Shown here one piece after another: positions 1 through 32,700 of a stretch of DNA of 64,000 nt; the first letter of the stretch is position 1, and each line of letters opens with the position of its first letter. Made by a program: the position numbers and the translations under genes. A model generated the notes under the pieces. That model was not told the origin of the DNA, ran no database searches, and saw only the letters and a program-made list of their open reading frames with translations. The DNA is from Pseudomonas coleopterorum (GTDB taxonomy: Bacteria > Pseudomonadota > Gammaproteobacteria > Pseudomonadales > Pseudomonadaceae). The stretch spans positions 4,281,001-4,345,000 of the forward strand of contig NZ_FNTZ01000001.1 in assembly GCF_900105555.1 (NCBI RefSeq), given 5' to 3'.

Positions 1-2
1 AC

Positions 3-161
3 GTGCGGGTCGGGCTGGAGGACAACATCTGGCTGGAGAAAGGCGTGCTGGCCACCAACGGTCAACTGGTGGAACGGGCCGGCGAGATTCTGACCCGGCT
101 GGGGGCACGGGTGCTGACGCCGGCCGAGGGGCGGCAAAAGATGAACCTCGTTCGGCGGTGA
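3..161 (+). CDS. 3-keto-5-aminohexanoate cleavage family enzyme (BKACE), C-terminal fragment
   Basis: Only the last 52 codons are in the window; the reading frame enters from the left edge and stops at the TGA at 159-161. The tail contains GLEDNIW, which is typical of the C-terminus of BKACE (DUF849) proteins, followed by a basic end. BKACE enzymes condense a beta-keto acid with acetyl-CoA and release acetoacetate plus a CoA ester. In Pseudomonas carnitine clusters the member (often cdhC) cleaves 3-dehydrocarnitine to betainyl-CoA. The next two genes are an L-carnitine dehydrogenase and a thioesterase, which supports that role. The assignment rests on a short tail plus context. Confidence 0.75.
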
Positions 162-179
162 TTTTTTTGTGCCCTCAAA

Positions 180-253
180 GGCCTCTTCGCGGGCAGAGAC
201 CCGCTCCCACACGGTTCGTGCGGGCGCGAGCCCTCTGCCCGCGAAGAGGGCCT
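180..253. repeat. REP palindrome (family 1) inside the carnitine operon
   Basis: Inverted arms carrying TTCGCGGGCAGAG and CTCTGCCCGCGAA flank a short centre with CCGCTCCCACA. It lies between the BKACE gene and the carnitine dehydrogenase start at 283. The same consensus recurs at least eight times in this window, always outside coding sequence. It could attenuate or stabilise the operon transcript, but it has no T-tract of a classical terminator. Confidence 0.8.
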
Positions 254-282
254 CACCCCACACACTTCTCCAGGAACAACCA

Positions 283-1248
283 ATGACCTACATCACCCAC
301 ATCAACACCTTCGCCGCCTTGGGCAGCGGAGTCATTGGCAGCGGCTGGGTTGCCCGCGCCCTCGCCCATGGCCTGGACGTCGTCGCCTGGGACCCGGCGC
401 CCGGCGCCGAAGCTGCCTTGCGCCAGCGCATTGCCAATGCCTGGCCTGCCCTGGTCAAGCAAGGTCTGGCAGCGGGTGCGGCGCAATCGCGGCTGCGCTT
501 CGTGGCCACCATCGAGGACTGCGTGCGCGACGCCGACTTCATCCAGGAAAGCGCGCCGGAGCGGCTGGAACTGAAGCTGGAACTGCACGCCCGCATCAGC
601 GCCGCCGCCAAGCCTGACGCCTTGATCGGCTCCAGCACCTCAGGCCTGCTGCCCAGCGAATTCTACGAGGGCGCCACACACCCGGAACGCTGCGTGGTCG
701 GGCACCCGTTCAACCCGGTCTACCTGCTGCCGTTGGTGGAGGTGGTCGGCGGCCGACACACCGCACCCGAGGCAGTCCAGGCGGCCATCAGCGTTTACGA
801 AAGCCTGGGTATGCGCCCGCTGCACGTGCGCAAGGAAGTGCCCGGCTTCATCGCCGACCGCCTGCTCGAAGCGCTGTGGCGCGAAGCCTTGCACCTGGTC
901 AACGACGGCGTGGCCACCACCGGCGAGATCGACGACGCCATTCGTTTCGGCGCCGGCTTGCGCTGGTCGTTCATCGGCACCTTTCTGACCTACACCCTGG
1001 CGGGCGGCGACGCCGGCATGCGGCACTTCATGAACCAGTTCGGCCCAGCCCTGAAGCTGCCCTGGACCTACCTGCCCGCGCCGGAGCTGACCGACACGCT
1101 GATCGACGATGTCGTCGCCGGGACCTCGGCGCAACTGGGGGAACACAGTATCGGCGCCCTGGAGCGTTACCGCGACGATTGCCTGCTGGCAGTGCTGGAC
1201 GCGGTACGGATGACCAAGGCCCGTCACGGCATGAGTTTCGCCGAATGA
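283..1248 (+). CDS. cdhA: L-carnitine dehydrogenase (3-hydroxyacyl-CoA dehydrogenase fold)
   Basis: 321-residue protein that should oxidise L-carnitine to 3-dehydrocarnitine with NAD+ in the cytoplasm. The N-terminal Rossmann motif GSGVIG is at residues 14-19. The 3-hydroxyacyl-CoA dehydrogenase catalytic block GHPFNP has its His at residue 141. The length matches carnitine dehydrogenases (about 320). I chose ATG 283 over upstream in-frame starts because those would translate the REP element; the chosen ATG puts the dinucleotide-binding motif at the usual distance from the start. It overlaps the downstream thioesterase by ATGA, implying translational coupling. Gene order (BKACE, dehydrogenase, thioesterase) matches known Pseudomonas carnitine clusters, which separates it from a fatty-acid 3-hydroxyacyl-CoA dehydrogenase. 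Confidence 0.9.
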
Positions 1249-1697
1249 TCACCTACCAGACGCCCGTGCTCGCGGAGTGGGTGGACTACAACGGCCATCT
1301 GCGCGATGCGTTCTACCTGTTGATCTTCAGCTACGCCACCGACGCATTCATGGCCCGCATCGGCGTCGATCCGCAGCGTGACCAGCACTCGCTGTTCACC
1401 CTGGAATGTCACCTCAACTATCTGCACGAGGTGAAACGGGGGGCCGAGGTGCAGGTGCGCACGCGGGTGCTGGCCCATGACCGCAAGCGGGTGCAGGTGT
1501 ACCACACGCTGCACTTGCAAGGCGCAGACGAGGTACTGGCAGCCAGCGAGCAGATGCTCTTGCATGTGGATCTGCAGGGGCCGAGGTCGGCGGTGTTCGG
1601 GGAGGCTTCGCTGGCGGTGCTGGGCGAGGCTTTCGAGGCGCAGCGGCATCAGCCTGCAGCCGAGTATGCCGGACGACGGATTGCGTTGCCTGGCTGA
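1245..1697 (+). CDS. cdhB: Betainyl-CoA thioesterase (hot-dog fold)
   Basis: 150-residue single-domain hot-dog thioesterase of the 4-hydroxybenzoyl-CoA type. The N-terminal segment [13 protein letters not shown] has the Asp/Asn-Gly-His pattern seen at the active-site helix of this family. In carnitine catabolism the partner thioesterase hydrolyses betainyl-CoA to glycine betaine and CoA, which then feeds the betaine demethylation pathway. Its start codon overlaps the stop of the carnitine dehydrogenase (ATGA), so the two are almost certainly one operon. Substrate is inferred from context; the fold is well supported. Confidence 0.85.
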
Positions 1698-1708
1698 ATA
1701 CCGTGTCG

Positions 1709-1817
1709 CGCCCTTCGCGGGCAGAGTCCCGCTCCCACAAGACAACCTTGCCTTCCAAGGCGAGTACCCTCTTGTGGGAGCGGGGCGGGCGGCAAGCCCT
1801 CTGCCCGGGAAGAGGCC
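1709..1817. repeat. REP pair (family 1) between convergent genes
   Basis: Two inverted REP units carry CTTCGCGGGCAGAG, CCCGCTCCCACAAG, CTTGTGGGAGCGGG and a degenerate CTCTGCCCGGGAAGAG. It sits between the thioesterase (plus strand) and the HNH-like gene (minus strand), and probably limits read-through from both sides. Confidence 0.8.
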
Positions 1818-1838
1818 AACACTGCCCTTCCAGTTCAA

Positions 1839-2411
1839 TCAACCATCCCGCCGCTCCACCGCCCCGGCAATCAGCGGCGCCATCTCGCGCAGCCCTTCGA
1901 GCCCGATCTTGCCCTCCTCATACAAGCGCAACCACTGCCGTCGCACGCGCATCACGCGCTCGTCGTCGCGTAGTGGCAGGTGCTTGAGGGTGTACTCGGC
2001 CCGCGCCCGGACCGCTTCGGGCACCTTGTCGGTCAGCACCAGTTGCAGCGACGGCAGCAACACCTCGAACCAGCCCTCGCGCACCTCGAACGGATCGAGA
2101 AAGTCCTCGGCTTTCTTGCTGCCCTTGGCACTGTTCATCCAGGCATCGACATAGCGGTAGTTGCTCCACTCGTAGGCCATGCCGCGGTCTTCGTCACAGC
2201 TGATGAAATGCTCCACGGTGCCGCTGGGAATGTACATCGCGCCGAAGGCACAGCGGTTGGCAAAGCCTTCGCCCAGCTGCGGACGAAACGGCGACCAGTA
2301 GTCCCGCGGCCTGCCAACGTCGGGATTATCCTGCAACCAGGCATTACCGCGCTGGCGGCAGCGCTCGTCGAAGCCGTGGGGCTCGGGCAGTGGATGAACG
2401 AGCTCGATCAT
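1839..2411 (-). CDS. HNH-endonuclease-like protein, PtuB-like partner of the upstream ATPase
   Basis: 190-residue protein. The central region has an HNH-like arrangement: EHF at residues 67-69, W-S-N at 82-84, M-N-S-A-K-G at 92-97 and LDPF at 105-108. This follows the order of the PtuB/McrA-type HNH core (His, then Asn, then the Asn-x-x-Lys-Gly turn, then Asp-Pro). The two CxxC zinc knuckles common in PtuB are not present; only single cysteines remain (residues 18, 54 and 72). Its ATG overlaps the ATPase stop as ATGA, so the two genes are co-translated. Two-gene ATPase plus HNH modules are the signature of Septu-type anti-phage systems. Nuclease activity is inference and the missing zinc ligands make it a divergent member at best. 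Confidence 0.55.
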   Translation of the reverse strand: MIELVHPLPEPHGFDERCRQRGNAWLQDNPDVGRPRDYWSPFRPQLGEGFANRCAFGAMYIPSGTVEHFISCDEDRGMAYEWSNYRYVDAWMNSAKGSKKAEDFLDPFEVREGWFEVLLPSLQLVLTDKVPEAVRARAEYTLKHLPLRDDERVMRVRRQWLRLYEEGKIGLEGLREMAPLIAGAVERRDG

Positions 2412-3646
2412 GCCGGCAGGCCTCTTTTGGCGACGACCCACGCCGGCCAGAAATGATCCCCGGCGGGCAAGGTTAGCAACAACTGCGACTGGATTGCGTC
2501 CTCGCTGTCCAGCCCCTCCGGCAGGTCCGATCGCTCGCCGCGCATCCAGGCCTCGGCGGCGCCGATCGCGGCTTCCGCTTCCACCGAGCGCGCCTGGCGC
2601 AGACCGAAGCTCTGGGACACCAGCCAGTTCACCGCATCGCCCTGAGCCGCCCAGATTTGCTGGTGCAGCTGCACCTGGCCTTCCTCCACGCTCAGGGTAA
2701 ACAGCGCATCGCGCGCCTCGACGAACTGTGCCTCCATGGAAGCCAGCACCAGCGGCGAATGGGTGGCCACGATCATCTGCACTGCCAGGCGCTGGCGAGT
2801 CAGCGCGCCGACCACGTCCATCAGCGCAGGCACGATGCGACGCTGCCACTGAGCATGCAGATGGCACTCGACTTCATCCACCAGAAACACCAACTCATCG
2901 CTCGGCCGTACACCGGCCAGGCGGCAAGCTCGACGGTGCCCTTCCCAAGTCCAGACCAGCATGTAGGCCAGGGCCACCACGCGGCGAATCGCACTGGAGG
3001 TTTCGGGCAAGGGCACTTGTCCCTGGGGCCGCTGCAGGGTCGGGTATTCGATCTCATCGAGCAGGCCGATGTGGCACGGCCGGCCGGGCAGCAGCAACTC
3101 CTCGCGCGACGGCGACAATGCGCGCAGGACCTGCTTCAGGGCAGCGAACGCCTTGCAGCCGTGGGTTCGCTGCCAGCGTACCCAGTCGTTGATCAAGCCG
3201 TTGCACAGGCGCCCCTGCCCCGCCATCGACGTACCGTGCCACAGCTGGGTTTCATCGAAGTGATAGGCCGCCAGCTCACCCGCGTTGCGCACCGGATCCC
3301 AGGCACTGAAGGTGCCATTGGCATGGGCATACACCACCAGCGAACGGTTCGGCGTGGCGTCGCCTACTGGTGTCCAGCGGTCTCGCTGCCAGGCCCATTG
3401 CCCGGGGCTGCGGTCCGCGCCGGTGAAACGATAATCGATGACCGGCAGCGCCGACGACTGGCGCGCCTTGATCGGCTTGCCTGCGGCCCAGGTGCGGGTC
3501 AGCACCCACCATGCCGTATCGAGCACGAAGCTCTTGCCCAGGCCGTTGTCGCCGGTGATGAAGTTGAGGCGTGGCGCCAGTCCGATCGGGCCCAGGGCTG
3601 GAGAGGGGCCGACGCCTTGAAAGGAGAGAAAGTCGAGCATTTCCAT
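2408..3646 (-). CDS. AAA/ABC-type ATPase (OLD/RecF-like), PtuA-like
   Basis: 412-residue ATPase. Walker A GDNGLGKS is at residues 32-39, Walker B FLVDEVE has its DE pair at 257-258, and an H-loop ATHSP has its His near 296. The region before Walker B (LPETSSAIRRV) occupies the signature-motif position. This layout (single split ABC head with a long insert, no transmembrane segment) is that of OLD, RecF and PtuA ATPases found in defence systems. I chose the ATG at 3646 because the fold's first strand begins immediately after it; upstream ATG 3703 is possible. The stop overlaps the HNH-like gene (ATGA). Base composition is like the neighbours, so any acquisition is old or from a similar genome. 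Alternative: an SMC-like repair ATPase, but the HNH partner argues for defence. Confidence 0.65.
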   Translation of the reverse strand: MEMLDFLSFQGVGPSPALGPIGLAPRLNFITGDNGLGKSFVLDTAWWVLTRTWAAGKPIKARQSSALPVIDYRFTGADRSPGQWAWQRDRWTPVGDATPNRSLVVYAHANGTFSAWDPVRNAGELAAYHFDETQLWHGTSMAGQGRLCNGLINDWVRWQRTHGCKAFAALKQVLRALSPSREELLLPGRPCHIGLLDEIEYPTLQRPQGQVPLPETSSAIRRVVALAYMLVWTWEGHRRACRLAGVRPSDELVFLVDEVECHLHAQWQRRIVPALMDVVGALTRQRLAVQMIVATHSPLVLASMEAQFVEARDALFTLSVEEGQVQLHQQIWAAQGDAVNWLVSQSFGLRQARSVEAEAAIGAAEAWMRGERSDLPEGLDSEDAIQSQLLLTLPAGDHFWPAWVVAKRGLPA

Positions 3647-3863
3647 TGCCGTCCATTGAAAGTGAACGGCAAGGGTATTCAGGCCCGCCCCGCCAGGTGC
3701 CATACCCGGTTGCTACATGGCTGGCTTACAGCCGCTGCGAACACGGCGAAAAACGACCTGTTCGTGTGCAATCCGGCCATGCTGACCACCGCCTCTTGCC
3801 CAGCGCGTGCGCGGCTACCAGAATCCGGACAACGTCACGCCACCCATAAAAAGGATCAGCATC

Positions 3864-4121
3864 ATGATGCATGCGGACTTGATTGATCAGGAGGACCTGC
3901 TGGGCCAGCTGCGCGCACTGGGTTTCGAGATGCCCGCAGGCGCCACGGCCGAGCAGGCCTGTGAATGCGCAGTGCGCGGCCTGGACAGCGGCCGTGCCCA
4001 GGCCCTGCGCAAGATGGTGGAACAGATGCTGACGGGCAGCGCGACCATCCTGCCGGCGGTCCGCCAGGCGATCGACCGGACCTTGCTGCCGGCATTGGCC
4101 CAGCATTCGAAGCGGGCCTGA
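3864..4121 (+). CDS. Small conserved hypothetical protein
   Basis: 85-residue, mostly helical, acidic N-terminus, no signal peptide or membrane segment. An AAGGA ribosome-binding site lies 8 bases upstream of ATG 3864 (a second ATG follows directly). The gene is divergent from the ATPase/HNH pair, sharing the 217-bp intergenic region with it, and convergent with gbdR. I do not recognise a family; small proteins like this are common in Pseudomonas genomes. Whether it belongs to the neighbouring defence-like module is unknown. Confidence 0.6.
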   Translation: MMHADLIDQEDLLGQLRALGFEMPAGATAEQACECAVRGLDSGRAQALRKMVEQMLTGSATILPAVRQAIDRTLLPALAQHSKRA

Positions 4122-4148
4122 ATTTCAATCCGGCCCCAGCTGAGCCCA

Positions 4149-4290
4149 TTGTGGGAGCGTGGCGGGTAGTCTGACCTATCGCGGCGCGCTCTTCGCGGGC
4201 AGAGCCCGCTCCCACAGATGTGATGCAAGCTCTGTGTGATGTAAACCCTGTGGGAGCGGGGCTCTGCCCGCGAAGAGCGCGCCGCGGTAT
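4149..4290. repeat. REP cluster (family 1) with long inverted arms
   Basis: A partial REP unit (GTGGGAGCGTGGCGGG) is followed by a near-perfect inverted pair: left arm about 4178-4216 and right arm about 4249-4290. Besides the core TTCGCGGGCAGAGCC, the arms share the flank GCGGCGCGCTCTTCGC. It lies between two convergent genes and abuts the gbdR stop codon, so it probably acts as a bidirectional transcript end or barrier. Confidence 0.8.
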
Positions 4291-5384
4291 CAGATCCTCA
4301 CACTGGCAAAGGTCGATTCGTTGCGCGCCTGGCTCAACGCCGACAACGGTCCGGCCAGGACCATGGCTTGCGGGATGGGCAGCATCGCCACCTGCTGGGT
4401 GGTATTGGAGCCGACGCGTTCGTCACGCGGCGGAATGCCGAAATACTCGCGATAGCACTTGGAGAAATGCGGCGTGGACACAAAGCCGCACACCGACGCC
4501 ACCTCGATGATCGACATGGGCGTCTGCTTGAGCAACTGTCGGGCGCGAATCAGGCGCAACTTGAGGTAGTAGCGCGACGGCGAACAATGCAGGTACTTCT
4601 GGAACAGCCGCTCCAGCTGGCGTCGCGACACCGCCACATACACCGCCAACTCGTCCAGGTCGATCGGCTCTTCCAGGTTCGCCTCCATCAACGCGACGAT
4701 CTCCTGCAGCTTGGGCTGGTTGGTGCCCAGCATGTGCTTGAGCGGCACCCGCTGGTGATCCTGTTCGTTGCGAATGCGCTCGTAGACGAACATCTCGGAA
4801 ATCGCTGCGGACAACTCGCGGCCGTGATCGCGGCTGATCAGGTGCAGCATCATGTCCAGCGGCGCCGTGCCGCCCGAACTGGTGAAACGATTGCGGTCCA
4901 GGGTAAACAGGCGCGTGCTCATGGCCACGCGGGGAAAGGCCTCTTGCATCGAGGCCAGGCATTCCCAGTGCACGCTGCACTCGAAACCATCGAGCAGACC
5001 GGCGCAGGCCAGCGCCCAACTGCCGGTACAGACCGCACCCAGGCGCTTGGACTGCCGTGCCTGGCTCTGCAGCCAGCTGACGTGGTCGCGACCCACCGCT
5101 CGCTGGATACCGACACCGCCACAGACGATCACCGTGTCCATCGGCGCGGCCTTGTGCATGGCCGAATCCGGAGTGATCTGCAGACCATCGCTGGCCCATA
5201 CCTGGCCACCGTCCGCGCTCAGGGTGGTCCATCGATACAGCTCGCGCCCGGACAACTGGTTGGCCATGCGCAGCGGTTCGACTGCCGAGGCCAGGGAGAT
5301 GAGGGTGAAGTTGTCGAGCAACAGGAAGCCGATGGACTGAGGACTGCGAGTCTGCGGCTGAGCGCCGGTGGTGAAGGATGTCAT
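4290..5384 (-). CDS. gbdR: GbdR, AraC-family activator of glycine betaine/dimethylglycine catabolism
   Basis: 364-residue GlxA-type regulator: an N-terminal DJ-1/PfpI-like (class I glutamine amidotransferase-like) domain at about 15-190 with GAVCTGSWALA, then a C-terminal AraC double helix-turn-helix at about 230-330 (SRRQLERLFQKYL and CGFVSTPHFSKCYREYFG). The sequence closely resembles Pseudomonas GbdR as I remember it, including IGFLLLDNFTLISLASAVEP near the start. GbdR responds to glycine betaine and dimethylglycine and activates betaine demethylation, choline transport and carnitine genes. Its position between carnitine genes and cbcXWV/bet genes matches other Pseudomonas. An AraC-type tandem site near cbcX (7345-7378) is its most likely target here. 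Confidence 0.9.
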   Translation of the reverse strand: MTSFTTGAQPQTRSPQSIGFLLLDNFTLISLASAVEPLRMANQLSGRELYRWTTLSADGGQVWASDGLQITPDSAMHKAAPMDTVIVCGGVGIQRAVGRDHVSWLQSQARQSKRLGAVCTGSWALACAGLLDGFECSVHWECLASMQEAFPRVAMSTRLFTLDRNRFTSSGGTAPLDMMLHLISRDHGRELSAAISEMFVYERIRNEQDHQRVPLKHMLGTNQPKLQEIVALMEANLEEPIDLDELAVYVAVSRRQLERLFQKYLHCSPSRYYLKLRLIRARQLLKQTPMSIIEVASVCGFVSTPHFSKCYREYFGIPPRDERVGSNTTQQVAMLPIPQAMVLAGPLSALSQARNESTFASVRI

Positions 5385-5921
5385 TGCGGTATCTCCTTAC
5401 GCGAAGCGGATGGTGGCCTCAGGCAGGCTCTTGTTATTGCCCTCTGTTTAACAGGGGCTTTGTAATCACCACGCAAACCTCATGCCTAAAAACTGAGGAC
5501 GCACCCGATAAATCCTGAAAACGACGTCGCTAAGGGTGATTGCAGGCTACTGTCGCCGGCATGTGTCATGCGCAAAGGAAGGCACTATAGGTATAGCAGG
5601 GAGGAATTTGAGCAGATCCGTAGCAACACCTACGGGCACTGTAGGAAGACTGTCACCGCAAGCACGGGCAATCAGCGGTCTTGGCTTGTACTGCCGTGCG
5701 AGAGGTACCTGCAGGCACACACGCGCAAAAAGGATGCAAGACTTACAAAGCGTGTACGAAAACGGCGCGGGCATCAGGACTTCTCACCGTAGGCGCAATC
5801 GCGAAAAGTCCTGAATGTTGGGTATGGCCGCGCCCAACGGGCCTCGCACCCCTCAGATTGACCAGTATGCTTTTATCGGAAGAACCACCCAGTGTTCGAA
5901 GACCTTCTCACCTGACGGAAA
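5385..5921. other. Gene-poor stretch upstream of gbdR
   Basis: The first 100 bases must contain the gbdR promoter. The remainder has only short open frames without ribosome-binding sites or recognisable products. A 9-bp inverted repeat (TCAGGACTT at 5774-5782 and AAGTCCTGA at 5806-5814) is followed without a T-tract, and a second one (GTTGGG/CCCAAC) lies just after it at about 5817-5838. I see no RNA gene that I can name. Confidence 0.5.
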
Positions 5922-6407
5922 TCAAGCTTTGTTAGGAGGTGATGAGAAGAATCCAGAAGAGATAGTTATCCTGGGCCCCATTTTGATTTCGACCACGACA
6001 TTTTCCAATCTACCCTGCACATGCCTATTGGTCAGGTCAAACACTTCCAAAATCACATCGCCACTCTGGACGAAACCCGTTTCTGGAGCGTCAACATCAT
6101 CACGTATTGTGATTTCCATGAAAGCCGGAAAATCGTTGGGGCCCAAGGGGTATGTCCCAGGCACGATATGACTATCAAAGTAGAGCCCGAATCTTTCTAC
6201 CTTAAATTTTTCTTGCCCCCCGTGGAATATCGTCATTTTCAGCGGGCTTTCAATGACCTTCAGCTTACTGTCGGGCAGTACCAACTGTCCGCCAAAGTAG
6301 TCGGAACTCAAGTGTACGGTTGCGGGAAACGACACGGCATGGCCGGTGTCATTTGTCTTGCCTGCTAGCTGCACAGCAGCTTCACGGGTTAAGCCATGAT
6401 TTTTCAT
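5922..6407 (-). CDS. Orphan hypothetical protein in AT-rich accessory stretch
   Basis: 161-residue protein with no signal peptide, no transmembrane helix and no cysteine. It looks all-beta: repeated alternation such as SFPATVHLSS, KLKVIESPLKMTIFHGG and NVVVEIKMG, with a GTYPLG turn. The ATG at 6407 has a good ribosome-binding site (GAGGTG five bases upstream), which decides the start over upstream ATG 6518. Codon use and base composition are clearly AT-richer than the flanking genes, suggesting horizontal acquisition. No family recognised. It is monocistronic. Confidence 0.7.
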   Translation of the reverse strand: MKNHGLTREAAVQLAGKTNDTGHAVSFPATVHLSSDYFGGQLVLPDSKLKVIESPLKMTIFHGGQEKFKVERFGLYFDSHIVPGTYPLGPNDFPAFMEITIRDDVDAPETGFVQSGDVILEVFDLTNRHVQGRLENVVVEIKMGPRITISSGFFSSPPNKA

Positions 6408-7344
6408 ATTACACCTCAAATTTTGTAGTGGCTGGTAATAGGTACAGGTAAGGCTTGGCCAAGCAGACAAACTCGATATTGGTCCTTTGAACGTCTTCGG
6501 ACCTGTAGCCGCTGGCATTGACGTACGGCTGCAGGCTTACATCTGCTGATAAGTTAACGAGATGTAGTCACCTGCAGAGATAAGCGTAGCGTTCAATAAA
6601 ACGAGCGCAAATCGATTAAAAACCGAATAACCTTTGGCATTTCGTGCAACTGCCTGATAACACGACAAAACCTTTATCAGCTCCGAAAAAACATCTTCGC
6701 CAGGTAATTTAATAAAATTATTTTAACAGGCGTTAAAGAATAGAAAACTGAACGCATCACTACATACCGACAACCGCTATGAAACCCTCGCCTTTCTCTG
6801 ACACCGAAAAATCATATGGAAAAATATTTACCGATTAACGGTGAAACTACAGTGAAAGCATTACTAGCACGGAATTGACTCTTAGCCCCCCTTCGAAGGG
6901 TATCGAATCGAGCAAATATGCCGTTACCGGAATGCGACTGTCGAATCAACCGTCTCCGCCGCTGACCCACCGAGCCCATCATCATCTCAGTGTTGCCATC
7001 CTGGAGAATGCACATGACCAAAACGAGCCCGACGTAGATACTACGAGGCGACATACCTACTTCAGGCCCCGAACTCGATTTGGGCATGCAACTGGTAACT
7101 ACGCGAAATCGACACAGGCCCGGCGTGCGCGGTACCTGCAGTTTTGGGTATGCTCGCCAGCGCCTGGGCACTGCTACGCTGACAGATACCTTTTCCCGGC
7201 CAAGGCTTTCCCACATCCGCACCACGACTGCCTGCGATGTGATCATGCTTAACTGCGCCTGCTGGAAATAGCGATGTCTCAACCAGCGAGCACGCTGAAA
7301 AGCACGTTCGATGACAGCAAAAAATCTGTAAGCGACGTCACCGA
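6408..7344. other. AT-rich gene-poor stretch
   Basis: About 6540-6850 is the most AT-rich part of the window and probably holds the promoter of the orphan gene at 5922-6407. From 6850 to 7340 there are only overlapping short frames without good start sites; the longest (6812-7282, minus) has no recognisable fold. Together with 5.4-6.4 kb this looks like a remnant insertion between gbdR and cbcX. Confidence 0.5.
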
Positions 7345-7378
7345 CACTGGATGCGACTCTGCCCGCACTGGATACGAC
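7345..7378 (+). promoter_or_regulatory. Tandem direct repeat, candidate GbdR (AraC-type) binding site upstream of cbcX
   Basis: CACTGGATGCGAC (7345-7357) and CACTGGATACGAC (7366-7378) match at 12 of 13 positions and are exactly 21 bp apart, i.e. two helical turns. Direct half-sites with 21-bp spacing are the usual architecture for AraC-family dimers. They lie 157 bp or more upstream of cbcX, and gbdR is the nearest AraC-family gene. Assignment to GbdR is inference. Confidence 0.6.
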
Positions 7379-7534
7379 GCACCCGGTAGGCGGCTGATTT
7401 GCGCTGGTACATGATCACTCACGGCCCGATCGCCTGGCACCTTGGCGGCGCACCCGTCGCGGACGCGGCGATCGAGCATTCAAACAAGCGTGGCATGCCC
7501 TTGCGCCCCACGCCGAGAAAACCAGGAGCACACC

Positions 7535-8482
7535 ATGAAAGGTCCAACATCGATTCTGCTGGCCACCCTGCTGGGCCTGCCTGTACTGGCTCACGCAGCG
7601 GAACCGGCGCGATGCGCCACTGTGAATTTCTCCGATGTCGGCTGGACCGACATCACCGTCACCACCGCCGTCACCAGTGCGGTGCTGCAGTCACTGGGCT
7701 ACAAGACCAAGACCACGATGATTTCCGTGCCGGTGACCTACAAGTCCCTGGCCGATGGCAAGAACATGGACGTTTTCCTGGGCAACTGGATGCCGACCAT
7801 GGAAAACGACATCAAGCCCTACCGCGACGCCGGCACTGTGGAAACAGTACGGGCCAACCTGGAAAACGCCAAGTACACCCTGGCCGTCCCCCAGGCGCTG
7901 TACGACAAGGGCCTGAAGGATTTCGCCGACATCGTCAAATTCAAGAAGGAGCTGGACGGCAAGATCTACGGCATCGAACCGGGCAACGACGGCAATCGCC
8001 TGATCCAGAGCATGATCGACAAGAACGCCTTCGGCCTCAAGGACGCCGGTTTCAAAGTGGTCGAATCGAGCGAGGCCGGCATGCTGTCCCAGGTCGACCG
8101 CGCCCAGCGGCGCAACACCGACGTGGTGTTCCTGGGCTGGGAACCGCACCCGATGAACACCCGCTTCAAGCTGCAGTACCTGACCGGCGGCGATGACTTC
8201 TTCGGCCCCAACTTCGGCCAGGCCACCATCTATACCAACACACGCAAGGGCTACACCCAGGAGTGCAGCAACGTTGGCCAGTTGCTGAAGAACCTGCAGT
8301 TCAGCCTGGCCATGGAAAGCACGCTGATGGGCAACGTCCTGGACGACAAGCAGAAACCCGACGTCGCTGCTCGGGCCTGGCTGAAAAACAATCCACAGGT
8401 GCTCGACACCTGGCTCGCGGGCGTCACCACCGTCGATGGCAAGCCGGGTCTTGAAGCCGTCAAGGCCAAGCTCGCGCAATAA
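7535..8482 (+). CDS. cbcX: Choline-binding periplasmic protein of the CbcXWV ABC importer
   Basis: 315-residue substrate-binding protein with a signal peptide (residues 1-21, cleavage after AHA). The mature part is an OpuAC/ProX-type quaternary-amine binder: VNFSDVGWTD at the N-terminus, FLGNWMP in the middle and VFLGWEPHPMN later supply Trp and acidic residues of the kind used in aromatic cation boxes. ATG 7535 follows an AGGAG site. The permease and ATPase genes follow directly. In P. aeruginosa the orthologous set transports choline and is controlled by GbdR. Betaine or carnitine are alternative substrates of close relatives, but those often use separate binding proteins encoded elsewhere. 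Confidence 0.88.
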   Translation: MKGPTSILLATLLGLPVLAHAAEPARCATVNFSDVGWTDITVTTAVTSAVLQSLGYKTKTTMISVPVTYKSLADGKNMDVFLGNWMPTMENDIKPYRDAGTVETVRANLENAKYTLAVPQALYDKGLKDFADIVKFKKELDGKIYGIEPGNDGNRLIQSMIDKNAFGLKDAGFKVVESSEAGMLSQVDRAQRRNTDVVFLGWEPHPMNTRFKLQYLTGGDDFFGPNFGQATIYTNTRKGYTQECSNVGQLLKNLQFSLAMESTLMGNVLDDKQKPDVAARAWLKNNPQVLDTWLAGVTTVDGKPGLEAVKAKLAQ

Positions 8483-8557
8483 CGCTGGCAGGCGGGCCGG
8501 CGGTTGCCGGCCTCACCGGCCGGCCCTTCGTTTCCTCGCATGCGGACACTCACTACC

Positions 8558-9403
8558 ATGCTGACAGACCACAAGATCCCCCTGGGCGAGTACATCGCGG
8601 CTTTCGTCGACTGGCTCACCCAACACGGGGCTTCGACGTTCGATGCCATCGCGTCCACGCTCGAAGCGATCATTCATGGTTTCACCGCCGGTCTGACCTG
8701 GTTCAACCCCTACGTACTGACCGCCCTGATCGCTGCGCTGGCGCATTTCATCCAGCGCAAATGGGGCCTGACGCTGTTCGTGGCGCTGTCGTTCCTGCTG
8801 ATCCTCAACCTGGGGTACTGGCAGGAAACCATGGAGACCCTGGCGCAGGTGCTGTTCGCCACCCTGGTCTGCGTGATCATCGGCGTGCCGCTGGGCATAG
8901 TCGCCGCGCACAAGCCGATGTTCTACACCATGATGCGGCCGGTCCTCGACCTGATGCAGACGGTACCGACCTTCGTCTACCTGATCCCCACGCTCACCCT
9001 GTTCGGGCTGGGCGTGGTACCGGGCCTGATTTCCACGGTGGTGTTCGCCATCGCCGCGCCCATTCGCCTGACCTACCTGGGCATCCGCGACGTGCCGCAG
9101 GAACTGATGGACGCCGGCAAGGCCTTCGGCTGCTCGCGCCGCCAGCTGCTGTCGCGCATCGAATTGCCGCACGCCATGCCGAGCATCGCCGCCGGCATCA
9201 CCCAGTGCATCATGCTGTCGCTGTCGATGGTGGTAATCGCCGCCCTGGTCGGCGCCGATGGCCTGGGCAAGCCGGTGGTCAACGCACTGAACACCGCCGA
9301 TATCGCGCTGGGCTTCGAAGCCGGTCTGGCCATCGTGTTGCTGGCGATCATGCTCGACCGTATCTGCAAACAACCCGACGTCAAGATAGGGGGTGATGCA
9401 TGA
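8558..9403 (+). CDS. cbcW: Choline ABC transporter permease
   Basis: 281-residue inner-membrane permease of the OpuAB/ProW type with about six to seven hydrophobic helices. The conserved cytoplasmic coupling loop (EAA-like) is ELMDAGKAFGCSRRQLLSRIELPHAMP, written here only as its key parts: DAGKAFG followed by RIELPHA at about residues 187-207. I chose ATG 8558 over 8504, as the upstream frame would lengthen the N-terminus with a non-homologous tail. Its stop overlaps the ATPase start (ATGA), so cbcW and cbcV are translationally coupled. It forms the translocation channel for the CbcX-delivered ligand. Confidence 0.88.
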   Translation: MLTDHKIPLGEYIAAFVDWLTQHGASTFDAIASTLEAIIHGFTAGLTWFNPYVLTALIAALAHFIQRKWGLTLFVALSFLLILNLGYWQETMETLAQVLFATLVCVIIGVPLGIVAAHKPMFYTMMRPVLDLMQTVPTFVYLIPTLTLFGLGVVPGLISTVVFAIAAPIRLTYLGIRDVPQELMDAGKAFGCSRRQLLSRIELPHAMPSIAAGITQCIMLSLSMVVIAALVGADGLGKPVVNALNTADIALGFEAGLAIVLLAIMLDRICKQPDVKIGGDA

Positions 9404-10581
9404 GCATTATTCGATTCGACAACGTCGATGTGATCTTCGCCAAGGACCCACGCGAAGCGCTGAAACTGCTCGACCAAGGGCTGACCCGCAACGAGATCCT
9501 GAAGAAGACCGGGCAGATCGTCGGCGTGGAAAAGGCCAGCCTGGACATCAACAAGGGCGAGATCTGCGTGCTGATGGGGTTGTCCGGTTCGGGCAAGTCG
9601 AGCCTGCTGCGCTGCATCAACGGGCTGAACACGGTGAGCCGCGGCAAGCTGTTCGTCGAGCATGAAGACCGCCAGATCGACATCGCCTCGTGCACGCCGG
9701 CAGAACTGAAGATGATGCGCACCAAGCGCATCGCCATGGTGTTCCAGAAGTTCGCCCTGATGCCCTGGCTGACGGTGCGCGAGAACATCAGCTTCGGCCT
9801 GGAGATGCAGGGCCGTCCGGAAAAGGAACGGCGCAAGCTGGTCGACGAGAAGCTCGAACTGGTGGGCCTGACCCAGTGGCGCAACAAGAAGCCCGACGAG
9901 CTGTCCGGCGGCATGCAGCAGCGTGTGGGCCTGGCCCGGGCGCTGGCGATGGACGCCGACATCCTGCTGATGGATGAACCCTTTTCGGCGCTCGACCCGT
10001 TGATCCGTCAAGGCCTGCAGGACGAGTTGCTGGAGCTGCAACGCAAATTGAGCAAGACCATCGTCTTCGTCAGCCATGACCTGGACGAAGCGCTGAAGTT
10101 GGGCAGCCGCATCGCCATCATGAAAGACGGGCGGATCGTCCAGTACAGCGTACCCGAGGAAATCGTCCTCAACCCGGCCGACGATTACGTGCGGACCTTC
10201 GTCGCCCACACCAACCCACTCAACGTGCTGTGCGGGCGCAGCCTGATGCGCACGCTGGACAAGTGCACCCGCGTCAACGGTTCGGTATGCCTGGATCCGG
10301 GCGTGGATTCATGGCTGAACCTGGGCGCCGGCAATTCGCTGACCAGCGCACGCCAGGGCGACACCGTGCTCGACGTGCAGGGCTGGGCGCCCGGGCAGGC
10401 GATGGAAGGACTGGGCCGCCGGCCGACACTGGTCAGTGCCGACATCGGCATGCGCGACGCCTTGCAGATCCGCTATCAGACGGGCCACAAACTGGTCCTG
10501 CAGGACAGTGACAAACAGGTGGTGGGCATTCTGGGGGATACCGAGCTGTACCATGCTCTGCTGGGCAAGAACCTGGGCTGA
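9400..10581 (+). CDS. cbcV: Choline ABC transporter ATPase with C-terminal CBS-like region
   Basis: 393-residue ABC ATPase of the ProV/OpuAA type. Walker A GLSGSGKS is at residues 60-67, signature LSGGMQQR near 168, and Walker B ILLMDEP near 188. The C-terminal 120 residues are where ProV/OpuAA proteins carry CBS domains used for osmotic or ionic gating; the sequence is divergent there. It starts within the stop of the permease gene. It powers uptake of choline delivered by CbcX. A REP pair follows the stop codon. Confidence 0.9.
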   Translation: MSIIRFDNVDVIFAKDPREALKLLDQGLTRNEILKKTGQIVGVEKASLDINKGEICVLMGLSGSGKSSLLRCINGLNTVSRGKLFVEHEDRQIDIASCTPAELKMMRTKRIAMVFQKFALMPWLTVRENISFGLEMQGRPEKERRKLVDEKLELVGLTQWRNKKPDELSGGMQQRVGLARALAMDADILLMDEPFSALDPLIRQGLQDELLELQRKLSKTIVFVSHDLDEALKLGSRIAIMKDGRIVQYSVPEEIVLNPADDYVRTFVAHTNPLNVLCGRSLMRTLDKCTRVNGSVCLDPGVDSWLNLGAGNSLTSARQGDTVLDVQGWAPGQAMEGLGRRPTLVSADIGMRDALQIRYQTGHKLVLQDSDKQVVGILGDTELYHALLGKNLG

Positions 10582-10619
10582 TCCTCGCTGGCAGGAGCCC
10601 TGATGCGGTTGGTCTGATA

Positions 10620-10710
10620 CACCGCGGCGTCTTTTTCGCGGGCAGAGACCCGCTCCCACAGGTTGATGAAGCCGTGTGGGAGCGGGTCTCTGCCCGCGAA
10701 CGCCTCACCG
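10620..10710. repeat. REP pair (family 1), perfect 26-bp arms
   Basis: The arms at 10635-10660 and 10675-10700 are perfect inverted copies (starting TTCGCGGGCAGAGACC and ending GTCTCTGCCCGCGAA) around a 14-base centre. It lies 40 bases after cbcV and separates the transporter operon from the bet operon. It is the cleanest copy in the window. Confidence 0.9.
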
Positions 10711-10801
10711 CAATCTCCCTGATACCCCCCCGCTCAAACCTTATTGCCTTCCCCTCCCCGATCCTCTAAAAACCCTGCACACATTCCCCCATCCTTTTTT
10801 A

Positions 10802-10821
10802 TTGATTGATCGTTCAATCAA
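10802..10821. promoter_or_regulatory. BetI operator upstream of betI
   Basis: Perfect inverted repeat TTGATTGA and TCAATCAA around TCGT, 70-89 bases before the betI start. TetR-family BetI binds such A/T-rich palindromes containing ATTGA half-sites at bet promoters, and releases DNA in the presence of choline. The 309-base gap between cbcV and betI contains this site and the REP pair; nothing else evident. Confidence 0.8.
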
Positions 10822-10890
10822 AATAAACTAGACTGGCTTCAGTCGGCTGTCACTCACTGCCCGTACTGCAGGTCCAAGGAGATTCGCGCA

Positions 10891-11484
10891 ATGCCCAAGG
10901 TCGGTATGCAACCCATCCGCCGCCAACAGTTGATCGAAGCCACGCTCCAGGCTGTCGACCAGGTCGGCATGAGTGACGCCAGCATTGCTCTGATCGCCCG
11001 CCTGGCGGGTGTGTCGAACGGCATCATCAGTCACTACTTTCAGGACAAGAACGGCCTGATCGCAGCGACCATGCGTCACTTGATGAACATGCTGATCGAC
11101 AACGTCGCCACGCGCCGACAGGCCTTGACCGACGACAGCGCCAGGGCGCACCTGCAGGTGATCATCGAAGGCAACTTCGACGCCAGCCAGGTCAACGCTC
11201 CGGCCATGAAGACCTGGCTGGCCTTCTGGGCCACCAGCATGCATCAGCCGTCCTTGCACAGGTTGCAGCGGATCAACGACCACCGCCTGTATTCCAACCT
11301 GTGTTGCCAGTTCCGCCGTGAATTGCCGGTGGAACAGGCGCGCAGCGCCGCACGCGGCCTGGCTGCACTGATCGACGGTCTGTGGTTGCGCGGCGCCCTG
11401 TCGGGCGATGCTTTCGATACCGCGCAGGCACATCGCATCGCCTGCGAATACATGGACATGCAACTGGCAAAACAGCAGCGCTGA
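10891..11484 (+). CDS. betI: BetI, TetR-family choline-responsive repressor
   Basis: 197-residue TetR-family regulator. The N-terminal helix-turn-helix spans about 25-55 ([19 protein letters not shown]), typical of BetI. AAGGAG lies 8 bases before ATG 10891. BetI represses the bet operon and is relieved by choline. It is first in the operon betI-betB-betA and autoregulation through the palindrome at 10802-10821 is expected. Confidence 0.95.
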
Positions 11485-11532
11485 AGCTTCGCGCCTCGCC
11501 TGCTGCCACCTTAACTGCACCGCGAGGATCTT

Positions 11533-13005
11533 ATGGCCCGTTTCCCAACGCAAAAACTCTACATCGATGGCGGCTACGTGGACGCCAGCGGCAGCGGCAC
11601 CTTCGATGCCGTCAACCCGGCCACCGGTGAAGTGCTGGCGCAGGTCCAGCGCGCCACCGCCGAAGACGTCGAAAAAGCCGTCGCCAGCGCCGAAAAGGGC
11701 CAGAAGATCTGGGCCGCGATGACCGCCATGGAGCGCTCGCGCGTGCTGCGCAAAGCCGTCGACATCCTGCGTGAACGCAACGACGAACTGGCCCTGCTGG
11801 AAACCCTGGACACCGGCAAGGCCTACTCGGAAACCCGCTACGTCGACATCGTCACCGGCGCCGACGTGCTCGAATACTACGCCGGCCTGGTGCCTGCCAT
11901 CGAAGGCGAGCAGATCCCGCTGCGCGACACTTCCTTCGTCTACACCCGCCGCGAGCCCCTGGGCGTGACCGCCGGTATCGGTGCCTGGAACTACCCGATC
12001 CAGATCGCTCTGTGGAAGTCCGCTCCAGCGCTGGCAGCCGGCAACGCGATGATCTTCAAGCCCAGCGAAGTCACCTCGCTGACCACCCTCAAGCTGGCCG
12101 AAATCTACACCGAGGCCGGCCTGCCCGCTGGCGTGTTCAATGTGCTGACCGGTAGCGGCAGCGAAGTCGGCGCCTGGCTCACCGAGCATCCTGGCATCGA
12201 GAAAGTCTCGTTCACCGGCGGCGTCAGCACCGGCAAGAAAGTCATGGCCAGCGCCTCGAGTTCCTCGCTCAAGGAAGTAACCATGGAACTGGGCGGCAAG
12301 TCGCCGCTGATCATCTTCGACGATGCAGACCTCGACAAGGCCGCCGACATTGCCATGATGGCCAACTTCTACAGCTCCGGTCAGGTCTGCACCAACGGCA
12401 CTCGGGTGTTCGTGCCCAATGCCCTCAAGGCGCAACTCGAAGCCAAGATCCTGGAGCGCGTGCAGCGCATCCGCATCGGCGACCCTGAAGACGAAAACAC
12501 CAATTTCGGCCCGCTGGTGAGCTTCGCCCACATGGAAAACGTGCTGGGCCATATCGCCAAGGGCAAGGCCGAAGGCGCGCGCCTGCTGTGCGGCGGCGAG
12601 CGGCTGACCAACGGTGAGCTGGGCCAGGGCGCGTTCGTCGCACCGACCGTGTTCACCGATTGCAGCGACGAGATGACCATCGTGCGCGAAGAAATCTTCG
12701 GCCCGGTGATGAGCATCCTCGGCTACGACAGCGAAGACGAAGTGATCCGCCGCGCCAATGCCACCGAGATGGGCCTGGCCGCCGGCGTGGTCACCCGCGA
12801 CCTGAACCGTGCGCACCGCGTGATCCATCAGCTCGAAGCAGGCATCTGCTGGATCAACGCCTGGGGCGAATCCGACGCGAAGATGCCGGTGGGTGGCTAC
12901 AAGCAATCCGGCGTGGGCCGCGAAAACGGCATCAGCTCGCTGGCGCAATACACCCGGATCAAATCGGTACAAGTGGAACTGGGCGATTACGTTTCGGTGT
13001 TCTGA
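11533..13005 (+). CDS. betB: Betaine aldehyde dehydrogenase
   Basis: 490-residue NAD(P)+-dependent aldehyde dehydrogenase that converts betaine aldehyde to glycine betaine in the cytoplasm. The catalytic Cys is residue 286 in SGQVCTNGT, and the general-base Glu is in TMELGGKSP about 35 residues earlier. The length and C-terminus ([12 protein letters not shown]) are those of Pseudomonas BetB. GAGGA lies six bases before the ATG. A 49-base gap follows betI and a REP-containing gap of about 200 bases separates it from betA. Confidence 0.96.
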
Positions 13006-13016
13006 GCCTGAATCCC

Positions 13017-13154
13017 GTGTGGGGCGGGCGGTGAGCCCACTGCCCAAGAAGGGGCCTTGAGCAACACTGCGGCGCCTTCTTCGCGGGCAGAGCCCGCTCC
13101 CACAAGGATCAGCTGTGTCGGGCTTTTTTGTGGGAGCGGGCTCTGCCCGCGAAT
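13017..13154. repeat. REP pair (family 1) between betB and betA
   Basis: Arms at 13080-13104 and 13129-13153 are inverted copies (TTCGCGGGCAGAGCCCGC and its complement) with a T-rich centre; a degenerate half-unit (GGGGCGGGCGGTGAGCCC) precedes them at 13020-13037. The element lies within the bet operon, so it could set different levels of betB and betA. Confidence 0.85.
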
Positions 13155-20877: not shown

Positions 20878-20938
20878 CCCTTTCGCGGGCAGAGCCCCCC
20901 GCTATCGTGTGGGAGCGGGCTCTGCCCGCGAAGAGGCC
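20878..20938. repeat. REP element (family 1, short-spaced and imperfect)
   Basis: TTTCGCGGGCAGAGCCCCCC is followed after a few bases by GTGTGGGAGCGGGCTCTGCC and CGCGAAGAGG. One arm has lost part of the CCGCTCCCACA core, so it is a degenerate copy. It lies between dbpA and the YhiN-type gene. Confidence 0.75.
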
Positions 20939-32610: not shown

Positions 32611-32700
32611 TGTGGGAGCGGGTTCTACCCGCGAAGAGGACACTGCGGCAGCACATGACTGCGTGTTGTGTTCTTCGCGGGTAGAACCCGCTCCCACAGG
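32611..32700. repeat. REP pair (family 1 variant) between tktA and epd
   Basis: Inverted arms at 32611-32636 and 32673-32698 (TGTGGGAGCGGGTTCTACCC and its complement). The core is GGTTCTACCCGCG instead of GGCTCTGCCCGCG, the same two changes in both arms, so both halves have co-varied. It lies inside the tktA-epd-pgk cluster. Confidence 0.85.

Follow-up and report, generated by a model that had tools for sequence, protein, structure and literature searches.

A probable type I Septu gene pair with a PtuB lacking CxxC zinc knuckles, located beside gbdR in Pseudomonas coleopterorum

The Septu system EcB88 of Escherichia coli is reported to consist of two genes, ptuA and ptuB, and to lose its defence activity upon mutation of K43 or D316 in PtuA or of H75 or N91 in PtuB; upon infection, tRNA-Tyr is reported to be cleaved in its variable loop (PMC13096335). 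For the Septu of E. coli ATCC 25922, nicked DNA is reported as the target (PMC11555353). One review describes PtuA and PtuB as a 6:2 complex and the PtuAB of retron Ec83 as being kept inactive by multicopy single-stranded DNA before degrading single-stranded DNA (PMC12948488), and another review lists detection of the phage single-stranded DNA-binding protein for Septu (PMC12904381). The retron form is called Septu type II in PADLOC naming (PMC8565338). Here we describe a pair of genes in a 64,000-nucleotide stretch of the Pseudomonas coleopterorum genome (contig NZ_FNTZ01000001.1, positions 4,281,001 to 4,345,000; hereafter the window), encoding an SMC/OLD-like ABC ATPase and a small HNH-like protein. 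With a probability of about 0.88, this pair is a Septu (type I) anti-phage system whose nuclease belongs to a zinc-free branch of PtuB.

Identity of the gene pair and the zinc-free PtuB branch

We found that PADLOC models match both proteins over nearly their full length. The PtuA1 model (PDLC00307) covers residues 3-408 of the ATPase with an E-value of 9.3e-165, and the PtuB1 model (PDLC00348) covers residues 1-188 of the small protein with an E-value of 3.1e-68. The predicted folds agree with the solved PtuA and PtuB structures over nearly the full length, and the small protein is predicted to contain the beta-beta-alpha core of a metal-dependent HNH nuclease (strands 65-68 and 85-88, helix 90-96). 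A sequence-only reading of this DNA had likened the pair to Septu and suggested these profile and structure comparisons, and both bear it out; the different fold that would have spoken against it was not predicted. The model matches, the PtuB fold, the pairing and the catalytic residues are all those of Septu type I.

Both open reading frames (ORFs) are intact and present as described by that reading, including all the motifs it had listed. The PtuA start at 3646 on the reverse strand coincides with that of homologues, in which M3 and L4 are nearly invariant. PtuA carries a Walker A motif (GDNGLGKS, G32-S39), a Walker B motif (LVDEVE, with D257 and E258) and an H-loop (ATHS, H296), and residues G32, N34, G37, K38, D257, E258 and H296 are invariant in a 60-row alignment (A3; the window's protein and those of 59 out of 80 loci). 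In PtuB, the motifs E67-H68-F, W82-S-N84, M92-N93-S-A-K96-G and L105-D106-P107-F follow one another in HNH order. H68, W82, N84, N93, K96 and P107 are invariant in an 84-row alignment (A2), which comprises 60 of the 64 loci prepared from those 80, 23 listed proteins and the window's; PDLC00348 matches every one of these rows. A further alignment (A1) contains 26 of 120 listed proteins (of 670 found) and the window's. Rows left out of the three alignments were broken, cut, near-identical or omitted for a shorter list. K38, D257, H68 and N84 occupy the same motifs as the four essential residues of EcB88, and the spacing between the histidine and the asparagine is 16 residues in both systems. The stop codon of ptuA overlaps the start codon of ptuB in an ATGA sequence, from which translational coupling had been proposed; the overlap is real, and coupling of the two genes is its probable consequence.

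The two genes are consistently paired. A scan of 84,980 species, each represented by a single genome, gave 89 stretches with a PtuB relative, of which the best 80 were retained; a PtuA sequence lies immediately upstream on the same strand in all 80. By our recount, the window's PtuA is covered to at least 85% in a single frame in 72 of these loci, where the gap between the PtuA and PtuB alignments is 5 to 314 bases. PtuA is partial or spread over several frames in the other eight (L043, L054, L061, L067, L068, L070, L088 and L092), some of which lie at contig ends, and PtuA frames that run longer from stop to stop (L023, L026, L038, L082, L083 and L091) appear by eye to be upstream read-through. 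Among 199 Pseudomonas genomes, the ATPase was found at an E-value of 1e-10 in nine and was never alone, PtuB adjoining it in every case (in genome G006 split over two contigs), so the partnerless ATPase that would have argued against Septu did not appear. The profile of the small protein found 17 of 398 Pseudomonas genomes, including those nine, and PtuA adjoins in all 17. The window's own genome has one match to the window's PtuB at an E-value of 0.001.

Two variants were seen among the relatives. The PtuA of an Acidobacteriota member of the branch (L044:6204-7961) has a possible N-terminal Mrr-type restriction nuclease domain (Pfam Mrr_cat, 21.1 bits against a cut-off of 21), so that this system possibly combines two nucleases. 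Four PtuBs (P0010, P0018, L016:8001-8912 and L017) are extended at the C-terminus by about 115 residues, and no Pfam family exceeded its cut-off in the three that were scanned (P0010, P0018 and L016); L016 and L017 come from the same genomic site as the window's pair.

The absence of CxxC zinc knuckles, the feature that had seemed atypical, is real. At the aligned zinc-ligand positions of the window's PtuB, C54 alone remains, and the CxxC motif and two later cysteines of retron-type PtuBs are missing. Of 81 PtuB rows, one from the window and the rest from the 80 loci, 78 retain C54, and a cysteine occurs at position 57 in three, at position 89 in one and at position 92 in none. The catalytic positions are retained in the same rows (H68 in 79, N84 in 80, N93 and K96 in 81). 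Position 67 is aspartate in 73 rows and glutamate in six, including the window's PtuB and its two closest relatives; retron-type PtuBs have glutamate at the equivalent position. The missing CxxC pairs are thus a trait of the whole branch, not of the window's protein alone, and the branch spans Pseudomonadota, Cyanobacteriota, Chlorobiota, Myxococcota and others. Since the solved E. coli Septu PtuB likewise has no CxxC pair within its displayed residues 47-174, the lack of zinc ligands does not separate the window's pair from studied Septu, and zinc knuckles do not define PtuB. Searched by title and the start of the abstract, with subscription journals mostly outside coverage, the literature gave no description of the zinc-free branch or of the gbdR slot treated below, and we do not claim that either is unpublished.

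Table 1. Coordinates of the gene pair, its flanking features and a second Septu pair in the same genome
Feature	Position	Strand	Description or basis
ptuB-like gene	1839..2411	-	190 residues, stop codon included in coordinates; predicted nuclease of the HNH (beta-beta-alpha-metal) type, CxxC zinc knuckles absent
ptuA-like gene	2408..3646	-	412 residues, stop codon included in coordinates; SMC/OLD-like ABC ATPase
ATGA overlap, ptuA stop and ptuB start	2408..2411	-	sequence
L-carnitine dehydrogenase gene	283..1245	+	NF005471, 647 bits (cut-off 414)
Thioesterase-like gene, 150 residues	1245..1697	+	putative; left boundary together with carnitine dehydrogenase gene (283..1697), by synteny
Small conserved Pseudomonas ORF	3864..4121	+	right boundary, by synteny
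gbdR, AraC-type regulator of choline metabolism	4290..5384	-	NF052371, 645 bits (cut-off 480); core flank
Second Septu pair	L164:5704-7696, contig C2 (65.8 kb)		PtuA 457 residues, PtuB 213 residues

The gbdR slot and its history

The pair lies between carnitine catabolism genes and gbdR, as had been read from the sequence, and both flanking assignments score above their model cut-offs (Table 1). The 150-residue protein on the left, which we take to be a thioesterase, matches the C-terminal part of NF005716 only, under the cut-off. The small ORF on the right matches no Pfam or NCBIfam family and adjoins gbdR in most sampled Pseudomonas loci. The claim that repetitive extragenic palindromic (REP) elements bound the pair on both sides is roughly borne out. 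A perfect core is present at 4195-4215, but it lies near gbdR, beyond the small ORF, and does not adjoin the pair; the left copy (1717-1738) is a variant with one extra base that was read by eye and falls outside the REP pattern search. With up to three mismatches, that search gave six matches in the window (4195-4215, 13083-13150, 20909-20929 and 32612-32697), against 0.02 expected by chance, and these are common intergenic repeats.

The same slot and orientation were found in P. baltica, Pseudomonas sp. 286, Q11 and SJZ074, P. marginalis, P. grimontii, and genomes G139 and G006. In G006, the PtuA at this slot lies in two frames over two contigs (L101:2-999 and L100:14447-14719). A gamma-butyrobetaine dioxygenase gene stands between the thioesterase-like gene and PtuB in L016, L017, L022 (where it exceeds the TIGR02409 cut-off) and G006. 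This gene is missing from the window at 1697-1842, and it adjoins the small ORF in 12 of 25 judgeable Pseudomonas loci. Those 25 come from a survey of 36 Pseudomonas genomes (G000-G035), in which GbdR was matched in 32 and a locus was examined in 30 of those. PtuA occupies the slot in two of the 25 (the window's own genome and G006). In the 23 without PtuA, a butyrobetaine-dioxygenase or thioesterase-like gene lies 137-411 bp from the small ORF, so there is no room for cargo, and we rejected the idea that other defence genes swap in and out at the slot.

In a 63-row PtuA tree with a midpoint root only, the eight gbdR-slot PtuAs form one clade (support 100/96), and the other Pseudomonas PtuAs in the tree (L030, L069 and L072) are placed elsewhere. 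This topology would suit a single insertion into the slot that was then inherited and in places lost, or else spread through recombination of the flanking regions. When the window is compared with its two close relatives, the synonymous divergence (dS) of the pair is 0.38-0.61, like or somewhat above that of four neighbouring genes (0.31-0.43). For P. marginalis against P. grimontii, the pair has a dS of 0.78-1.13, above the 0.21-0.41 of gbdR and the carnitine dehydrogenase gene, which hints at exchange in this case. The ratio of non-synonymous to synonymous divergence (dN/dS) of the pair against the two close relatives is 0.05-0.11, and the pair is therefore under purifying selection.

Alternative readings and proposed mechanism

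Several observations weigh against a Septu identity. Pfam assigns no family to the small protein, not even HNH, and the NCBIfam equivalogs for PtuA and PtuB of the retron Ec78 type score far under their cut-offs (NF041760, 46.9 of 500 bits; NF041761, 12.3 of 150 bits). Searches of solved-structure sequences with the small protein, as a single sequence and then as a profile, returned no PtuB; the link to PtuB came from the PADLOC models and the predicted fold. Pfam matches on the ATPase are generic ATPase domains only. The window's copy also sits among metabolic genes, outside any defence island. Away from the gbdR slot, we scanned 89 of 206 prepared ORFs from 24 of 35 loci. Among the 25 commonest families listed, the most frequent PADLOC and Pfam neighbours are restriction-modification parts (type I specificity, four; type I restriction endonuclease, three; PglX, three; ResIII, six; SWI2/SNF2, five), accompanied by one BrxL, three glycosyltransferases and some metabolic proteins. 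This hints at defence-type surroundings, in a scan that had no control set and in which most neighbour proteins are not established defence genes.

The sequence-only reading had also raised an undescribed Septu subtype, in which loss of the zinc knuckles would mark out a class distinct in its chemistry or its target. Besides the loss of CxxC pairs throughout a branch that keeps C54, seven more distant Pseudomonas PtuBs also lack the pairs, four of them (L176-L179) with a CxxxC instead. In 11 retron-type or related Pseudomonas PtuBs (of 12 loci, L102 being left out for a wrong frame), the CxxC and later cysteines are kept, as are the CxxC pairs in a second Septu of the same genome. However, both proteins are already recognized as PtuA1 and PtuB1 by PADLOC 2.0.0 (2023), and the E. 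coli PtuB stretch shares the zinc-less state, so we consider a new subtype unlikely; the pair is a genuine yet ordinary member of a known Septu kind. That the ATPase and nuclease instead form a related OLD/RecF-type module (Gabija, PARIS, OLD or a retron) is hardly credible, being largely refuted by the PADLOC matches, both folds and the absence of a reverse transcriptase match in the genome. The fixed slot and orientation, the single clade, the metabolic neighbours and the broken PtuA of G006 would fit a remnant or domesticated pair that has lost its defence role, but the low dN/dS and the intact catalytic residues make this very improbable. The pair is also missing from most of the genomes sampled, which speaks against a housekeeping role.

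By analogy with studied Septu systems, the ATPase of the type I Septu pair would form dimers around ATP and, from these, a larger complex to which PtuB is attached. The latter would be a divalent-metal HNH nuclease (E67/H68, N84, N93 and K96) with a core held together without a zinc knuckle. The PtuA assembly would hold PtuB in check in uninfected cells, and a change caused by the phage would release or activate it. Active PtuB might then cleave nucleic acid, either phage DNA or host tRNA, and thereby stop phage growth. Complex formation, gating by ATP and the defence role are thus proposed from described relatives. A broader proposal, which we offer as speculative and rather doubtful, is that in a widespread zinc-free PtuB branch the zinc knuckle gave way to an HNH core packed by protein alone, with one cysteine retained, that its target or trigger is unlike that of the studied zinc-bearing retron PtuAB systems, and that in Pseudomonas it is an old, mostly vertically inherited defence pair in a fixed gbdR slot, not borne by mobile elements.

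Comparison with known Septu and retron systems

The closest described system is Septu type I (PDLC00307 and PDLC00348; solved E. coli structures 8eea for PtuAB and 8ee4 for PtuA). The window's pair shares with it the two-gene layout, the near-full-length folds, the Walker and H-loop motifs, the HNH residues and the lack of a reverse transcriptase. The window's proteins are only 13-19% identical to the solved PtuA and PtuB chains in structural alignments, and the window's PtuA is the shorter one (412 versus 465 residues).

The PtuAB proteins of retrons Ec78 (Eco7) and Ec83 (type I-A retrons, PADLOC Septu type II) differ in that their PtuBs keep the CxxC and two later cysteines and that they have a partner reverse transcriptase. 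No RVT_1 (PF00078) match was found in the whole genome at an E-value of 0.001, in a search whose control was positive in three of 14 genomes, E. coli included; thus, the pair is not the retron form. Rfam gave no match in window positions 1-12000. Together with the low scores of the retron-type NCBIfam models, these results led us to reject a retron origin.

The second PtuAB, on contig C2, is also a PADLOC Septu pair, but it matches other models than the window's pair (PDLC00283, E-value 2.3e-143; PDLC00325, E-value 3.7e-77) and has CxxC pairs (CVYC and CADC). Contig C2 appears plasmid-like, with a TrbC conjugative-transfer gene over the cut-off and a ParA-like gene under it. One genome therefore holds a zinc-free chromosomal PtuAB and a zinc-bearing one on contig C2, which would allow a direct comparison of their targets and triggers. 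This comparison matters in that reports on studied PtuAB systems name either DNA (PMC11555353) or tRNA-Tyr (PMC13096335) as the target.
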